Below are positions 1,909 to 10,116 of a stretch of 18,605 nt of DNA, piece by piece. The notes beneath the pieces are model-generated. The model had not been told where the DNA came from. It did not search any database and worked only from the letters and a program-made list of their open reading frames with translations. The position numbers and the translations under genes were made by a program. The stretch's first letter is position 1. The number at the start of each line of letters is the position of its first letter. This DNA is from Patescibacteria group bacterium (GTDB lineage: Bacteria > Patescibacteriota > Minisyncoccia > JAHCSD01): assembly GCA_018609185.1 (NCBI GenBank), contig JAHCSD010000004.1, positions 1 to 18,605 on the forward strand. The letters run 5' to 3'.

Positions 1909-3096
1909 CTAGACTTCTTCTACCCTGCTTAATTGCTTTTCCAGGTTATATCGCACTATCTGAAGCTCCCTTGTGGCGCTGCGTAAATCAGACACAAGCT
2001 TTTTTTGCTGGGTGATGTCAAATGCAAGCATAACGATTCCAATGACCTCTCCACCGGGGCCTTTCAAGGATGAAACGGAAAACCGTACAGGAATTTTTTT
2101 CTTTTCTTTTGACAGAAGCTCGCTTTCGTGATGGATAACCTCTCTCTTGCCCCGCCCCGACATATTAAGGAAATATTTCTTACACTCCTGCCACACCTTG
2201 CCCGGAGCAATTATTTTCTTTAGCCCTTCGCCAAGGATTTCTTCTTCCCGATACCCCAGCATTTCAAGTGCGGGCCTATTCACAAACTCAACCCGGTAAG
2301 ATCGACTCAATACTATAAGAGATTCTGACATGCTGTCCATAACGGTTGAAAGCGCAAGCGCGGGAGAAATAATAAACAGCTTATATTTTACAATGGCATA
2401 GGAAATCGTTACCGCAAAGATTGTCGTAAAGACAACGGCGACCCCCGGCAAACCAATTCCTAAAAACGGGAAAATCCCGTCGGTAACCGCACCTCCGATA
2501 AGAGGAATAGAAATCCCGAACAAAATAAGGGAGATTTGCTTCTTTTGCTGATGCTGTTGAGTTTGAAAATAAAAACGCAGAAGGAGCAAAAAAGAAAGCA
2601 CAAAAAATCCTACCACCCACAGTACAAATGCAAGATAGAAAGGGCCCACGTGAGGAAACCATCCCCAAAACACCGGTTCCAGCGTATTACGAATAATCAA
2701 GTCAGTATTCCAGATCAAAAATAAAAAGGCGACAGAAGGAGTATATAAAAGAAGAAGGGCAAAGATATTCTCAAACAGTATCCCCCGTTCAATGAGAATG
2801 AGGGTAAAGGTAAAAAACAGTACCCCTACAAACACGGGGCCTACCACCCCCACATCTCCCCAGAATACCGCGGCTTCGTGGGTGACGCTTGATCGTTCAA
2901 AGAATTCACCTATTCCCCAAATAATCACTCCGAGTAAGCTTAGGATATATATTTTACTTGCAATGTCTCGTGAAGATTTCTTCCAGATAAAAATGACAAG
3001 TCCCGTATTAATCAAGACCGCAAAAAGAGAAGGAAGGGCCCAGGGCTGGAAATGAATATTGAGAACAGAAGAAAAGGTAGTGTAGAGGAGCGGCAT
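1909..3096 (-). CDS. 7TM-PAS membrane sensor, kinase-less (paralogue 1)
   Basis: A 395-residue protein. Residues about 18-240 hold seven hydrophobic segments like the N-terminal 7TM region of certain histidine kinases (HisKA_7TM type), ending in the linker IVKYKLFIISP. Residues 250-362 are a PAS domain (MSESLIVLSRSYRVEFVNRPALEMLGY, closing on IGIVMLAFDIT). Residues 363-395 form a charged coiled coil (QQKKLVSDLRSATRELQ). No HisKA, HATPase, GGDEF or other output domain follows. It probably senses a membrane-borne or small-molecule signal and passes it on by protein contact or dimerisation. The start codon lies two bases after the stop of paralogue 2 (3099), so the two are in one operon and probably translationally coupled. 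The 9-residue N-terminal extension compared with the paralogues is uncertain. Ligand and partner are unknown. Confidence 0.85.
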   Translation of the reverse strand: MPLLYTTFSSVLNIHFQPWALPSLFAVLINTGLVIFIWKKSSRDIASKIYILSLLGVIIWGIGEFFERSSVTHEAAVFWGDVGVVGPVFVGVLFFTFTLILIERGILFENIFALLLLYTPSVAFLFLIWNTDLIIRNTLEPVFWGWFPHVGPFYLAFVLWVVGFFVLSFLLLLRFYFQTQQHQQKKQISLILFGISIPLIGGAVTDGIFPFLGIGLPGVAVVFTTIFAVTISYAIVKYKLFIISPALALSTVMDSMSESLIVLSRSYRVEFVNRPALEMLGYREEEILGEGLKKIIAPGKVWQECKKYFLNMSGRGKREVIHHESELLSKEKKKIPVRFSVSSLKGPGGEVIGIVMLAFDITQQKKLVSDLRSATRELQIVRYNLEKQLSRVEEV

Positions 3097-3098
3097 GG

Positions 3099-4268
3099 TT
3101 AAAGTTTCTCGCCCAAAGATCGTTCAAGGTTGATTTTCGCATCTTTGAGTTGAGCAAGTTTTTGTTCAAGGCTTCGAATAAGTTTTTTCCTGTCTTCAAT
3201 ATCGTATGCAAGAGACACAATGCCCGTGAGCTCCCCTTCCGGACTCTTGACGGATGAAGCAGAAAAGTTTACCGGAATTTCCCTCCCGTCTTTTGTCAGG
3301 AATTTAAGCTCGAGGTTCTTTACTTCCTTCTTCCTGCGAAGCGGCTCAATTCCCCGACTCATAAACGTATCCCACACATTCCCCCCTACAATAATGTTTT
3401 CCACCTTTTTCCCTACGAGCTCATCCGAAGAATGATACCCCAGAAGATCGAGTGTGGTCTTGTTAACCATCTCAATATATAATGACGGGTTAAACACAAT
3501 AAGGGCTTCCGACATGGTATTAATAATATTGGGGATTACGAGTGACGGCGATATGATAAAAAGCTTATATTTAATAATTGCAATGCCTAAAAACAACGCA
3601 AGGGAAAGCGAAGTAAACGGGAAGACAACCGCTTCAAGTAGTGCAGAGTGGCTCTCGAAAAAGATCGGGTATACCACCTGGCTCACCATGCCAAAAATAA
3701 AAGAGGGAAGAATAGCAAGGAAGATGAGGATGGCTTGACTCCTTTCTTCTTTTACCTTAGCCTTGAGATAATATCGAAGCACATGGTAAAACGCAAAGAG
3801 AAAGAGAAACGTTATCCAAAGTCCAAAAAGAGGAAAATATTTCCCCGGAGGGGCCTGCCACCCCCACGCCAGCCGCTCAAGGTCGTAGGTAACTATAAAA
3901 TTGCTTCGCCATGCCAGAAAGAGAATGGCAAGAGAAACGCCTGCAAGCCCTAAAAGAAGCCAAAAGTTTTTCGCCAAACGTTCCTGCCGAACAAACGTCA
4001 GGACAAATAATAAAAAGGCGGGACCAATAAAAATCCATCCAATTGCTCCGACTCGCAAGGAAAGCTCTACAACCGCCGGTGAAGTGGTAAGGGTGTTTAC
4101 CACTTCAGATACTGCCCATATCGCTACAAAAACTAAAAATACAATAAACAATTTATTTAACAGGCTGTACGGGTTTTTCGAATATACATATACAATAAAC
4201 CCTACGATAACCAGAAGGGCAAACAGTGACGGAATGACGTATATATTGAATGCGAACGCGTCTGTCAT
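3099..4268 (-). CDS. 7TM-PAS membrane sensor, kinase-less (paralogue 2)
   Basis: A 389-residue protein with the same architecture: seven membrane segments in residues about 10-238 (opening FNIYVIPSLFALLV), the linker IIKYKLFIISPSLV, a PAS domain at about 250-360 (MSEALIVFNPSLYIEMVNKTTLDLLGY ends its first strand-helix unit, and GIVSLAYDIEDRKK closes it) and a C-terminal coiled coil rich in K, E and L. It ends with no catalytic domain. It is the first gene of a two-gene operon. An extended -10 box on the minus strand (4309-4317) predicts a leader of about 34 bases. It is divergent from the glycosidase gene, whose start lies 51 bases away, so the two share a control region. Orthology within the family is not resolved. 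Confidence 0.85.
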   Translation of the reverse strand: MTDAFAFNIYVIPSLFALLVIVGFIVYVYSKNPYSLLNKLFIVFLVFVAIWAVSEVVNTLTTSPAVVELSLRVGAIGWIFIGPAFLLFVLTFVRQERLAKNFWLLLGLAGVSLAILFLAWRSNFIVTYDLERLAWGWQAPPGKYFPLFGLWITFLFLFAFYHVLRYYLKAKVKEERSQAILIFLAILPSFIFGMVSQVVYPIFFESHSALLEAVVFPFTSLSLALFLGIAIIKYKLFIISPSLVIPNIINTMSEALIVFNPSLYIEMVNKTTLDLLGYHSSDELVGKKVENIIVGGNVWDTFMSRGIEPLRRKKEVKNLELKFLTKDGREIPVNFSASSVKSPEGELTGIVSLAYDIEDRKKLIRSLEQKLAQLKDAKINLERSLGEKL

Positions 4269-4318: not shown

Positions 4319-5524
4319 ATGTGTCCTGTGAACAAAAAGAAGCAAAATCAACTCCTGAAAAACATGAAACACCATCTGGTGCGCGACCTCAAAAGACTCA
4401 CCTCTCCCCAAGGCTATCTTTGGGCGGGATATCCTCATTTCAAAACCCTGTTTGGGCGCGACGCGCTCATTTCCGCATGGCAGCTTCTCGAATACGATCC
4501 CGGATTCACAAGAGCGACTCTCACCAATCTCGCAACATATCAGGGGAAACGCATCAACCATAAAAAAGAAGAAGAGCCGGGAAGAATTCTTCACGAGTAT
4601 CGGTCTCCAGATGAAATCTACACATGGCAGCACAAATTTGAACATTTTAATAGCTGGGGGTTTCCGTATTATGGAAGCGCAGACAGTACGTTGTGGTTTG
4701 TTATTCTTGCGCATGACTACTTAATGCATACGCATGACGAGAAGTTCATAAAAAAGCTTTGGCCCAACATAAAAAAAGCTACCCGGTGGATCTATGAATA
4801 TGGGGATGCGGATCAAGACGGTTTTATTGAGTATGAACGAAAAAATCCTGCGGGCCTCTACCATCAGGGTTGGCGCGACGCGACGGAAAACCACCTCCGT
4901 ATTGAAGCCCCTGTGGCACTCGTTGAAATCCAGGGATATGCCTATCGGGCGCTTGAAGCAGGAAGCGAACTCGCGACTCTTGAAGGAGAATCACAACTTG
5001 CAAGAGAGCTTAACAAACGGGCTCAAAATTTAAAACAGAAGTTTGATAGCGTCTTTTGGGACGGTTCACGTTATATCCTGGCACTTGACAAACATAAGAA
5101 AAAAAACAAAAGTAGTTCATCAAACCAGGGGCATTTACTTTTTACCGGCATTATCTCCTCGCGCGAAAAAGAACAAAAGCTTGTGAGGCGTCTTTTTTCG
5201 CCTGACATGTGGACGCCATACGGAATTCGAACACTCTCTACTAAGGACAAAAACTTTAACGAATTAAGCTACCATCTCGGTTCGATCTGGCCGCATGATA
5301 ACTGGATTATTTATAAAGGACTTAAGGATAAAGGATATACTACTAAAGCTCAGAAAATAAAACAGGCTCTCATTAAAGCGTTCCAGGAAATAGGGTATCT
5401 TCCTGAATACTATGTAGTAAAAAACGATAAAATCGCAAAGCCCTATCTGCGCCGTGCTTGCCACCCGCAAGCGTGGGCCACCGCCGCACTCCTCGAAATG
5501 ATCACACATGATACAAACAGTTGA
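4319..5524 (+). CDS. Amylo-alpha-1,6-glucosidase / glycogen-debranching-type glycosidase
   Basis: A 401-residue protein corresponding to the (alpha/alpha)6-barrel of the debranching enzyme C-terminal family (COG3408-like). Motifs in order: GYPHFKTLFGRDALI (37-51), GSADSTLWFV (119-128), YHQGWRDATE (181-190, the GWxD block that carries a catalytic aspartate in relatives), NQGHLLFTG (269-277), LGSIWPHDN (320-328) and CHPQAWATA (381-389). Relatives usually carry an N-terminal beta-sandwich domain (GDE_N type), which is absent here. It has no signal peptide, so it acts in the cytoplasm, hydrolysing alpha-glucosidic bonds in a storage or scavenged oligosaccharide; the exact substrate cannot be read. 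The start at 4319 is the longest; M16 (4364) is an alternative. The stop codon is inside the long hairpin that follows. Confidence 0.85.
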   Translation: MCPVNKKKQNQLLKNMKHHLVRDLKRLTSPQGYLWAGYPHFKTLFGRDALISAWQLLEYDPGFTRATLTNLATYQGKRINHKKEEEPGRILHEYRSPDEIYTWQHKFEHFNSWGFPYYGSADSTLWFVILAHDYLMHTHDEKFIKKLWPNIKKATRWIYEYGDADQDGFIEYERKNPAGLYHQGWRDATENHLRIEAPVALVEIQGYAYRALEAGSELATLEGESQLARELNKRAQNLKQKFDSVFWDGSRYILALDKHKKKNKSSSSNQGHLLFTGIISSREKEQKLVRRLFSPDMWTPYGIRTLSTKDKNFNELSYHLGSIWPHDNWIIYKGLKDKGYTTKAQKIKQALIKAFQEIGYLPEYYVVKNDKIAKPYLRRACHPQAWATAALLEMITHDTNS

Positions 5525-5574
5525 CCCCGTTAGAAGTAAGCCACCCTCGGGTGGCTTACTTCTAACGGGGTTGA
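5521..5574. repeat. Very long perfect hairpin at the glycosidase stop codon
   Basis: Bases 5525-5546 are the exact complement of 5549-5570 (22 bp, two-base loop, in practice a CTCG tetraloop). In plus-strand RNA four more pairs, two of them G-U, extend it to 5521/5574 and take in the TGA stop (5522-5524). No U-run follows, so it is not a typical terminator. The right end overlaps the -35 box of the ncRNA promoter. It may protect mRNA 3' ends or be a dispersed palindromic repeat. Confidence 0.9.
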
Positions 5575-5600
5575 TAGCTCCCCACGACATATGATATAAT
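5571..5600 (+). promoter_or_regulatory. Promoter of the structured ncRNA
   Basis: TTGATA (5571-5576), an 18-bp spacer, and TG-a-TATAAT (5592-5600): a perfect -10 with the extended element. The predicted start is about 5607, the first base of GACCCCT, which pairs with the RNA's 3' end. It is one of the strongest promoters in the window and has no plausible protein gene downstream. Confidence 0.75.
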
Positions 5601-5606
5601 AAAAAA

Positions 5607-5753
5607 GACCCCTTAGATAAGTCTTTCTCATAGTTTTTGGGTCAAATAGTTTATTCCGGGAGTCTTATATTTTGTGAGGCCGTGGTCTCACAGTGCGGAC
5701 ACCCACCTGGAATATTTGCCGAAATACTAGAGAGAGCGCCGAGGGGTCTTTTT
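5607..5753 (+). ncRNA. Structured small RNA, 6S RNA-like
   Basis: From the predicted start at 5607 the RNA folds end to end. GACCCCT (5607-5613) pairs with AGGGGTC (5742-5748), which is followed by TTTTT as a terminator tail. Next, 5623-5629 pairs with 5730-5736 and 5631-5634 with 5726-5729, with one bulged A. A large internal loop follows (5635-5651 against 5715-5725). Then 5652-5657 pairs with 5709-5714, an interrupted GGG/CCC-GTC/GAC helix follows, and a terminal hairpin lies at 5674-5691. A roughly 145-nt rod with paired ends and a central bubble is the layout of 6S RNA, which mimics an open promoter and binds sigma-70 RNA polymerase. The identity is inferred from topology, size and promoter, not from a database match. 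No protein frame here is convincing. Confidence 0.55.
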
Positions 5754-6924
5754 ATTGCTTTTGAAGCAGGCTTCCCATCTTTCTCTCGAGCTCATATTTT
5801 GAAAGCTGGAGCTCTTGAACGGCTTTCTCTAGTTTTTGAACAAGTTTTTTGGTTTGCGTCACGTCGCTTACCACCACCACTATTCCTGTAAGTTTTTCGC
5901 CCTTGCTTACTATGGGAGATGCGGAAAAGTTTACCGGAATTACTTTTGCGTCTTTTGTTAAAAATGTGGTCTCAAAATTTCTCACCATTGTTCCGCTTTT
6001 AAGGGGTTCGAGACCCTTCTTTCGAAACGTTTCGATGTTTTTCCCGTCAGTAACTATTTTCTCTACGTGTTTCCCCACTAGTTCGTCCTCATGATACCCC
6101 AACATTTGCTGAATGGCCTTGTTCGCCATATCAATATAGTAATCTCTGTTAAGCACGAGCAGACCTTCGGTCATCGTGTTCAAGATATTATAAAATGCTG
6201 TGGTGGGGCTTACGATAAAGAGCTTATACTTCATAATTCCGTAACTTACAATAATTGCCATGACCGTTGTAAAGAACACGGCAGTTTCAATAATGGTTAC
6301 CTTAAATATGGGCAAAATAGCATCGGTCGCGCTTCCGATAACAAGGGGGACAAGTAGACCAAACATAATGATTAATGTTTGACGTCTCTTTATTTGGTCC
6401 TCGAGTCGACGGAAATATTTAAACAGAAGAACAAGCGAACTCACAAAAAAGAATTCTAGCCAAATTATAAATAACCAGAAAAATCTGCCGGGATCTTCGT
6501 CCCATCCGTAATAAGTTGGAATGGCTTTCGCAGGATCGTTAAGTACAATAAGTTCTGTGTTCCAAACAAGAAACAAAAAGACGAGCCCCGGTAAAAATAC
6601 CACGACAGGAAACCAGGGATAATTAAGAAGTTTCTCTTTTCTCGCAAAAATGAGAGTAAACGTAAAAAAAATGGGCGACATAAACACCCAACCAGGAGGA
6701 CCAAGTTTTGCCCAGAATTGCTCTGCAGCGGCAGTTGCACTTATCCTTCCCATTAACTCGGCCACGCCCCAAAGAGCAAGAGAAAAAAGAAAAAGCGCAA
6801 ACCAACGATTCGCGGAATTTTGTGAGCCCTGCCGCAAAATCAATATGGCAAGAACCAAGTTCACTACCAAACCCACAAATGACGGAATAGCCCAGATATT
6901 AAAGGTGAAGTCGAATACTTCCAT
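5752..6924 (-). CDS. 7TM-PAS membrane sensor, kinase-less (paralogue 3)
   Basis: A 390-residue protein with the same order of parts as the two sensors at 1909-4268: seven hydrophobic segments (opening FNIWAIPSFVGLVV), the linker IMKYKLFIVSPTTA at about 236-249, a PAS domain at about 250-362 (MTEGLLVLNRDYYIDMANKA, then GYHEDELVGKHVEKI, closing on VVVVSDVTQTKK) and a coiled-coil tail ending without an output domain. It is closer to paralogue 2 in the PAS segment (both have a VRNFE/VKNLE and LTKD-x-PVNFSAS block). The stop codon overlaps the T-run of the convergent ncRNA terminator. A weak minus-strand -10 (around 6955-6960) would give a short leader. The signal sensed is unknown. Confidence 0.85.
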   Translation of the reverse strand: MEVFDFTFNIWAIPSFVGLVVNLVLAILILRQGSQNSANRWFALFLFSLALWGVAELMGRISATAAAEQFWAKLGPPGWVFMSPIFFTFTLIFARKEKLLNYPWFPVVVFLPGLVFLFLVWNTELIVLNDPAKAIPTYYGWDEDPGRFFWLFIIWLEFFFVSSLVLLFKYFRRLEDQIKRRQTLIIMFGLLVPLVIGSATDAILPIFKVTIIETAVFFTTVMAIIVSYGIMKYKLFIVSPTTAFYNILNTMTEGLLVLNRDYYIDMANKAIQQMLGYHEDELVGKHVEKIVTDGKNIETFRKKGLEPLKSGTMVRNFETTFLTKDAKVIPVNFSASPIVSKGEKLTGIVVVVSDVTQTKKLVQKLEKAVQELQLSKYELERKMGSLLQKQ

Positions 6925-7678: not shown

Positions 7679-8539
7679 TTATTGAACTATTATTTCTTCC
7701 CCATCACTTACAAATCCGATGTCTCCATCAGTATCTGTTCTTAAAACCTTTATACCATATTTGTCTAAATTCTCCAAAACTGCCGGAAACGGATGCCTGT
7801 ATCGATTATTCTCGCCAACAGAAATCACTGCCAGATCAGGACTGACATTCTCAAGAAATAATTGGCTGCTCGAGGTTTTGCTTCCATGGTGAGCCACCTG
7901 CATCACATCTACGTCAATATCCCACCCGCCTTGAATAAGCCTATGTTCAACCAACCGCTCAGCATCTCCCGTAAAAAGAAAAGAGGCGTCGCTATAATCC
8001 ATCCGGATCACAACAGAATTATTGTTTGATTTCTCATAAAGCTCTTCTCCAGGATTTAATATCTCTAATATGATATCTTCGCCTATCTTGATTTTGTCTC
8101 CAACGATCGCTTTTTTGTAGCGATAGTTTTTATCTTTGAGAACACTTGAATATTCTTGAAATACACCCGTCCCTTTAAAATCTCCGGAGTCAATAACCAA
8201 ACCGACGTCATACTTCTCCAAAACATCTATTAACCCAGTAATATGATCTGCGTCAGGATGGGTAGCAATAACGATATCAATGCTTCTATCATAAAACGGC
8301 ATTTCCTCGGCAAGCTTACGTAACACGCTGTTGTCCGGCCCCCCATCAATCAAGATTTGCCTCCCGCCCGGCGTTTCGATAAAAATCGCGTCCCCCTGAC
8401 CGACGTCGAAAAAGGTGACTTCGAGAAGCCCGTCTTGGGCCTGGCCTGTTTGAGAAAAGACCGCGGACCAAACCAAAACAAGAATTACAACAAGACCTCC
8501 GAAAAAGTAGATTATGAAATTGCGTTTTTGTTTAGGCAT
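7679..8539 (-). CDS. Membrane-anchored ComEC/Rec2-type metallo-beta-lactamase-fold hydrolase
   Basis: A 286-residue protein. Residues 1-9 are basic and 10-29 form a single membrane anchor or signal sequence, so the enzyme domain is probably outside the membrane. The fold begins LLEVTFFDVGQGDAIFIETPGGRQILIDGG (38-67), typical of the detached C-terminal domain of ComEC. The metal-binding motif THPDADH is at 93-99, followed by FLFTGDAE and MQVAHHGS, which carry further ligands. In ComEC this domain is thought to degrade the non-transported DNA strand. The comEC gene in this window lacks that domain, so this protein is a natural candidate to supply it; that is an inference. It is divergent from the 8567 gene with 27 bp between starts. 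A truncated second copy lies at 9919-10116. Confidence 0.88.
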   Translation of the reverse strand: MPKQKRNFIIYFFGGLVVILVLVWSAVFSQTGQAQDGLLEVTFFDVGQGDAIFIETPGGRQILIDGGPDNSVLRKLAEEMPFYDRSIDIVIATHPDADHITGLIDVLEKYDVGLVIDSGDFKGTGVFQEYSSVLKDKNYRYKKAIVGDKIKIGEDIILEILNPGEELYEKSNNNSVVIRMDYSDASFLFTGDAERLVEHRLIQGGWDIDVDVMQVAHHGSKTSSSQLFLENVSPDLAVISVGENNRYRHPFPAVLENLDKYGIKVLRTDTDGDIGFVSDGEEIIVQ

Positions 8540-9918: not shown

Positions 9919-10116
9919 CTACCCTGAATACAAAGGTATATATTGTGTGACAAGTGTCAAGATGCTATCACCTTGACCGACGTCGAAAAAGGTTACTTCC
10001 AGTAGCCCGCCCTGGGCCTGACTCGCCTGCGAAAAAACCGCAGTCCAGACGAGGACGAGAATAACAGCAAGGCCTCCGAAGAAATAGATTATGAAGTTGC
10101 GTTTTTGTTTGGACAT
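9919..10116 (-). pseudogene. Truncated duplicate of the metallo-beta-lactamase gene
   Basis: The first 51 residues (MSKQKRNFIIYFFGGLAVILVLVW... to FFDVGQGDS) are nearly identical to the N-terminus of the intact gene at 7679-8539, including the membrane anchor. Homology stops near 9961, after which 13 unrelated codons lead to a stop. All metal-binding motifs are missing. It therefore cannot be an enzyme, though a 65-residue membrane peptide could still be made: a GGGAG element sits five bases before the ATG. The break in homology marks a partial duplication or a deletion after duplication. The rest of the 9815-10148 interval holds only the terminator at 9835 and the promoter at 10117. Confidence 0.85.

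Follow-up and report, generated by a model that had tools for sequence, protein, structure and literature searches.

A probable 6S RNA gene of a CPR branch of the family in a Patescibacteria genome

Positions 5607–5753 of the window (the whole 18,605-nucleotide stretch of DNA analysed here) encode, with a probability that we put at roughly nine in ten, a 6S RNA belonging to a CPR/Patescibacteria branch of that RNA family. The stretch has a promoter, a rod whose helices (P1, P2, P3 and an apical hairpin) covary among relatives, a central bubble that bears no sign of selection for pairing, and homology to the Rfam 6S family. We regard it as very probably a genuine gene for a small RNA of 6S type, whose clade-specific form mostly escapes standard searches; its transcription, its binding to RNA polymerase and the synthesis of a product RNA from it are predictions from sequence. 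The kind of RNA is known, and it is the CPR branch and its reach that appear new, a novelty limited to the open literature searched. In that open full-text literature we found no report of 6S RNA or ssrS in the candidate phyla radiation, Saccharibacteria or Parcubacteria; where "6S RNA" occurs together with Patescibacteria the 6S meant is the SRP RNA, and together with TM7 it occurs in an oral metatranscriptome paper with each term appearing once. A 2014 study by Wehner is said to deal with the distribution of 6S RNA.

The interval between a glycoside hydrolase gene (MGH1-like / GDE_C; 4319–5524, forward strand, stop at 5524) and a convergent gene for a HisKA_7TM plus PAS protein (5752–6924, reverse strand) contains the promoter and the 147-base stretch 5607–5753, and the end of the convergent gene overlaps the predicted 3' end of the RNA by 2 nt. 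The extended -10 promoter with a -35 box that the original prediction placed here is present: a TTGATA box (5571–5576) is followed, after an 18-nt spacer, by TGA and then TATAAT (5592–5600, with TATAAT at 5595–5600), so that 11 of 12 consensus bases and the extended -10 lie upstream of 5607, all on the forward strand. At this strict threshold (11/12 plus TG), which was chosen after the site had been seen, it is the single site in the whole window on both strands (mean of 0.02 in 100 shuffles), and at a looser threshold there are two sites in the region against 2.6 expected. The ends of the predicted RNA, G5607 at the 5' side and a T-run at the 3' side, were inferred from promoter spacing and from the T-run. 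The claim that these 147 bases hold no gene stands except for one frame: an 84-aa open reading frame with a TTG start (5637–5891) is the sole ORF of at least 60 aa that overlaps 5607–5751.

Several other features of the neighbourhood may be recorded here. An inverted repeat of 23 perfectly matched base pairs, with a loop of 2 nt and no T-run (5524–5571), directly follows the glycosidase stop and abuts the 6S -35 box; its first bases, ACCCCGTTAGAAGTAAG, resemble by eye those with which the 6S RNA begins (GACCCCTTAGATAAG). The minus strand of the window carries three HisKA_7TM plus PAS proteins (1909–3096, 3099–4268 and 5752–6924), in none of which Pfam matches a kinase domain at E≤0.001, and the glycosidase and 6S genes are located between the second and third of them. 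The start of a 286-aa protein (7679–8539, reverse strand) is closely repeated in a 65-aa frame (9919–10116, reverse strand), which by eye resembles a truncated duplicate.

The predicted RNA folds far better than shuffled versions of itself (-57.1 kcal/mol against a mean of -37.5, sd 4.2, n=200; z -4.62, none of the 200 as good). Its closing stem, P1, joins 5602–5613 to 5742–5753 with 12 of 12 pairs (5607–5614 and 5741–5748 in the folded RNA), and its 3' arm ends in T5, as expected from the claim that the two ends pair and are followed by a T-run. Above it, helix P2 (5623–5641 with 5719–5737), which is defined by the fold and by the swap test described below, leads to the central bubble, whose 5' strand (UCAAAUAGUUUAUUCC) spans 5642–5657 and whose 3' strand, starting with a strongly conserved ACCUGG, spans 5705–5718. 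The bubble is closed by a clamp helix, P3 (GGG A GUCU at 5658–5665 with GGAC A CCC at 5697–5704), and the rod is capped by an apical hairpin of nine pairs and a 4-nt loop (5672–5693), which is seen in the fold and covaries in relatives. These bubble limits come from the conserved flanking pairs of the relatives and displace the bubble first proposed (5635–5651/5715–5725). The 5' strands of the bubble and of P2 together form the predicted template for a product RNA.

In the minimum-energy fold of the window copy itself the bubble is mostly paired across (CAAAUA with UAUUUG, and UUCCGGG with CCUGGAA), which counts against the 6S reading; an alternative fold with the GGG:CCC clamp of the family reaches -56.8 kcal/mol, 0.3 kcal/mol worse than the minimum. 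Pair probabilities in this copy are about 0.39 for GGG:CCC and 0.87 for UUCC:GGAA, and its 5' bubble strand has a mean unpaired probability of 0.39. The predicted rod with a central bubble thus holds for the family, where the helices covary and the bubble strands do not, but not for the best fold of this one member.

The Rfam 6S model (RF00013), used in a permissive scan, aligns to 5604–5752 over all of its length (model positions 1–187 of 187), and the alignment covers the closing stem, P2, the bubble, the GGG-A-G...C-A-CCC clamp and the ACCUGG 3' bubble strand. The score, 33.4 bits, is below the curated cut-off of 46.4 bits, and so the Rfam comparison gives a full-length alignment but a sub-threshold match, the latter weighing against the 6S reading. 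The E-value is 1.8e-5 over 241 bases, 0.0014 over the window and 1.4e-5 over the genome, in whose 799,174 bases the window copy is the sole RF00013 match at E≤10. At the Rfam cut-offs a scan of the window finds a tRNA only. In the whole-window scan two miRNA models have lower E-values (0.00041 and 0.00094) than RF00013, also a point against, so that the RF00013 score in the window would not by itself settle the identity of the RNA. The miRNA matches, at 5523–5571, fall on the nearby perfect palindrome and were taken as chance. Besides 6S, the only Rfam family matched by the 5607–5753 stretch is one snoRNA, by chance, and hence no other known class of RNA competes for it. The 6S-like identity originally proposed is therefore supported by a full-length RF00013 alignment that is the only one in the genome, and by arms kept by compensatory change in CPR homologues.

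RF00013 itself finds few of these homologues. Among 285 genomes of the class it gives 11 matches at E≤1, of which one (51.3 bits) is over the cut-off; nine carry the core GGGAGYCU...UGCGGRCACCCACYUGG or close variants of it and are 129–166 bases long, against the 187 positions of the model, and two (L040 and L041, at 13.4 and 12.6 bits) lack the core motif and were dropped. Among 20 relative loci (a subset of the 30 from the class search with our own model R1, overlapping earlier loci), three exceed the cut-off at 51.3, 49.8 and 47.8 bits, one of them (L083) from the same genome that was already over it in the class search; one scores 29.9 bits, and in the other 16 the model finds nothing at E≤0.05. 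In 379 genomes of the phylum 30 are matched and four are over the cut-off. Strict-filter RF00013 searches of the class and phylum genomes missed the window copy, which again counts against the 6S reading; in the large searches filters are strict and few candidates are scored per genome, and divergent members are therefore lost.

A DNA-level search of 93 genomes with the window's RNA gave mostly short chance matches and a few real relatives. An exact pattern (GGGAGNCT, a gap of 22–50, TGCGGRCACCCACYTGG) was sought in 84,980 prokaryote species, represented by a single genome apiece; it occurs at 28 places, 23 of them in records with CPR titles (Patescibacteria, Parcubacteria, Paceibacterota, Kaiser-, Portnoy-, Yonath-, Nealson-, Vogel-, Nomura-, Peregrini- and Saccharibacteria/Saccharimonadia, all of which we take to be CPR lineages) and five in records titled only "bacterium" or "uncultured bacterium"; no title from any other phylum occurs among them. 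We built two covariance models, R1 from a 31-sequence alignment (A2) and R2 from a larger, model-fitted one (A3). At E≤0.01 per genome R1 matches 119 of the 285 class genomes, at least 15 of which hold training sequences, and 125 of the 379 phylum genomes, at least two of which do; R2 matches 147 of the 379, a sample from which A3 includes loci, and at this threshold about four chance matches are expected across the 379. At E≤0.001 R1 still matches 119 of the phylum genomes and R2 138. The RNA thus occurs in many CPR, usually once per genome, with a single match in 146 of the 147 genomes found by R2 (the other has two) and in 117 of the 119 class genomes found by R1. Of the 30 places found by RF00013 in the phylum, 27 coincide with R1 matches (the others are in G291, G322 and G375, and R2 finds that in G322). 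R1 is not wholly independent of RF00013, the model that first brought up nine of the 31 sequences used to train it. Outside the phylum the two models were applied to the E. coli ssrS locus only, and their specificity rests on the exact-pattern scan. Neither R1 (run unfiltered) nor R2 matches E. coli ssrS, a result counted against the 6S reading and one from which we conclude that the CPR form is a distinct branch.

A -10 box with at least five of six consensus bases lies upstream of 63 of 77 relatives against 29.4 expected, and 38 of these boxes are 6/6; terminator-like sites follow 20 of 76 against 4.5 expected, a figure that we list against the 6S reading. By eye, tRNA genes lie shortly downstream of the 6S RNA on the same strand at three loci (L046, L050 and L061), and by Rfam within about 1 kb of it at four of the 20 loci scanned (L072, L074, L078 and L079). 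It is very unlikely that we are dealing with some other CPR small RNA without 6S function, such as a cis leader, a base-pairing RNA or a regulator acting antisense on the convergent sensor gene: the 2-nt overlap with the end of that gene speaks for such an RNA, but the stretch has its own promoter and closing stem, the GGGAG...ACCCAC core is near-invariant across lineages, there is usually one match per genome, and the matches coincide with those of RF00013.

The helices of the 6S-type rod are kept by compensatory change. A1, in which MAFFT aligned 18 relatives over their full length, misaligned the outer stems and resolved inner helices only; it was replaced by a core alignment (A2) and by an alignment-free swap test, in which each relative's 5' strand is paired with its own and with the others' 3' strands. 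For P2 the own partner gives a mean of -20.4 kcal/mol against -9.7 for swapped partners with 36 relatives, and -19.8 against -9.6 with 78 (0 of 20,000 permutations as good in each case); the 78 are the rows of A3 minus three duplicates or near-duplicates (L050, L068 and L103) and one sequence without the anchor (L123). With 77 relatives the P1 region gives -20.7 against -12.8 kcal/mol, with bounds that overlap outer P2, and outermost P1 gives -14.4 against -10.4 (0 of 20,000 for both). Innermost P2 gives -7.7 against -4.3 kcal/mol (0 of 20,000), a signal that is weak at the level of single sequences and to that extent tells against the 6S reading, in that the own partner is the best one for 13 of 78 relatives and the window's own ranks 41st.

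The alignments agree with this. A2, a MAFFT core alignment of 31 sequences (L010, L018, L044, L059 and L060 were left out of the 36), has 83.2% of its cells paired against 67.9% in shuffles and a covariation score of 0.497, which falls to 0.223 on shuffling (0 of 500 shuffles reach 0.497) and to 0.236 or less on sliding. These counts lean toward the P2 register used because that register was picked by pairing frequency on A2. Pairs changed on both sides number 16 against 13.7, a value reached by 28 of 500 shuffles, which counts against the 6S reading. A3, with 82 rows of which 79 are distinct, leans more to this register than A2 does, and has 91.4% of cells paired and a score of 0.740 against 0.223 over the distinct rows; here too the number of pairs changed on both sides is a weak point on the other side, being reached by 44 of 500 shuffles. 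The apical hairpin and the clamp P3 covary in both A2 and A3. In A3 the GGG:CCC of the clamp, with its opposed A:A, is nearly invariant, and the pair above it switches jointly among C-G (35 of 79), U-A (29) and G-C (8). The covariation that was to be looked for in relatives is thus present, by partner swaps and in both alignments.

These tests already contradict the notion that the stretch is a chance foldable sequence, terminator debris or an unrecognised coding gene. That notion could draw on the 84-aa TTG frame that crosses the stretch and on the sub-threshold RF00013 score, but with the folding z-score of -4.62 and the compensatory changes against it we consider it exceedingly improbable. 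It is opposed as well by an indirect check for a conserved protein frame, in which the cores of only three of 21 relatives lie mostly inside an ORF of at least 100 aa, compared with 85% of 1,050 random stretches (21 of the 23 listed loci were counted, L050 and L068 being outside the set).

The two strands of the bubble behave otherwise than those of the helices. Own bubble strands pair at -2.45 kcal/mol and swapped ones at -2.38, and 6,931 of 20,000 permutations are as good, in a test whose power is limited because ACCUGG in one of the strands is nearly invariant; swaps being no worse than own partners, we conclude that the flanking helices have been kept paired and the bubble has not. Among relatives the probability of being unpaired averages 0.59 in the 5' bubble strand, 0.39 in ACCUGG, 0.22 in the P2 5' strand and 0.03 in GGG. 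Their 3' bubble strand begins with ACCUGG and the bases that follow fold back onto it, giving a hairpin of -3 kcal/mol or better in 67 of 78 (-6.5 on average, compared with -2.6 once the bases downstream are shuffled) that holds at least three of the ACCUGG bases in 66 of 78. This hairpin in most CPR relatives suggests a switch of the E. coli type. In the window copy it is weak (-1.0), and this copy is among the 12 without the hairpin, a further point against the 6S reading; its minimum-energy fold has the cross-bubble pairing.

An RNA of 6S shape could also bind RNA polymerase in another manner, as does Ms1 of Actinobacteria, which binds the core enzyme, and would then store or tune core polymerase. 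Ms1 is structurally related to 6S RNA and is bound to RNA polymerase (PMC9130861, in the part of that source available), and the mostly closed bubble of the window copy would suit such a role. Ms1, however, binds the core enzyme (same part of PMC9130861), whereas our stretch matched only 6S and the one chance snoRNA in Rfam; some relatives score over the RF00013 cut-off, own bubble strands have no pairing advantage over swapped strands, and the release element of E. coli, the 3'-bubble hairpin, is found in 66 of 78 relatives. We therefore judge an Ms1-like RNA unlikely and retain the 6S reading.

Set beside known 6S RNAs, the CPR form is recognizable and divergent. The closing stem, P2, bubble, clamp and ACCUGG align with RF00013 over the full length and some CPR relatives exceed its cut-off, but the window copy and most CPR relatives examined fall below the cut-off or are not found, and the CPR core motif and its variants are a difference from that model. 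PMC8876501 (available part) describes 6S RNAs as rod-shaped, with a closing arm and an apical arm on either side of a central bubble. With the E. coli RNA (ssrS) the CPR RNAs share this rod and, in the 66 of 78, a possible 3'-bubble release hairpin of the kind given for E. coli in the available part of PMC8876501; they differ in that ssrS is unmatched by the CPR models, in that the window copy lacks the hairpin, and in gene neighbours, ssrS lying between zapA and fau in E. coli and the window copy among others. With B. subtilis 6S-1 they share a functional core made of a bubble flanked by two arms, and the collapse helix across the bubble that supports release in 6S-1 has a possible parallel in the cross-bubble pairs of the window copy; the 6S-1 helix, however, joins the P2 3' strand to the distal 5' bubble (all for 6S-1 from the same part of PMC8876501), while the pairs in the window copy join both bubble strands and are not a feature of the CPR family.

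By analogy with these systems, the CPR rod would imitate an open promoter and occupy the RNA polymerase holoenzyme with the primary sigma factor under nutrient shortage. When nutrients return, the polymerase would begin to copy the 5' bubble strand into a short product RNA, and this synthesis would read into the 5' strand of P2, unwind P2 and release the polymerase; the available part of PMC8876501 describes such unwinding by product-RNA synthesis and, for E. coli, a hairpin formed by the freed P2 3' strand and the 3' bubble that contributes to release. In the window copy the template of the product RNA would run from about 5647 to about 5632, with a start guessed from position. Once freed, the 3' strand of P2 could in most relatives form a hairpin with ACCUGG like the one known from E. 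coli, and the window copy, without that hairpin, may use its cross-bubble pairing instead.

A search for the sigma factor that such a mechanism calls for gave a mixed result. Sigma70 region 3 is over the cut-off in all ten RNA-bearing relatives tested and cannot separate the two groups, since it is also over it in eight of ten relatives without an RNA match. In the window's own genome, which is 85% complete, it was not found over the cut-off, which counts against the 6S reading; the sole Sigma70 region 4 match over the cut-off there is in a short protein that is ECF-like by eye. This short sigma-like protein is encoded at 1438–2166 of L140 (contig C137), and the gene after it codes for a product that is hydrophobic in an N-terminal stretch and very acidic and repetitive at its C-terminus.

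CPR bacteria make up a large part of bacterial diversity and their transcription regulation is poorly known. A predicted polymerase-sequestering RNA in 125 (R1) or 147 (R2) of 379 of their genomes would give them a concrete, testable global regulator and would widen the reach of 6S RNA; at the same threshold and on the same sample R1 picks up about four times the number of genomes that the Rfam model does (125 against 30). The relatives found by exact pattern include records titled Saccharibacteria, a group with cultured members. We consider the chances about even that 6S RNA is, throughout much of the CPR, an old and widely kept global regulator of RNA polymerase, as a rule in one copy, and that some CPR members have swapped the release hairpin for cross-bubble pairing; the CPR form would then have gone unnoticed because it scores under the Rfam cut-off. 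If this is true, the E. coli-type release hairpin is older than the Proteobacteria and the window copy is an example of its replacement by cross-bubble pairing, and 6S RNA may act in these regulator-poor cells as a main switch for passing between starved, detached and host-fed growth.
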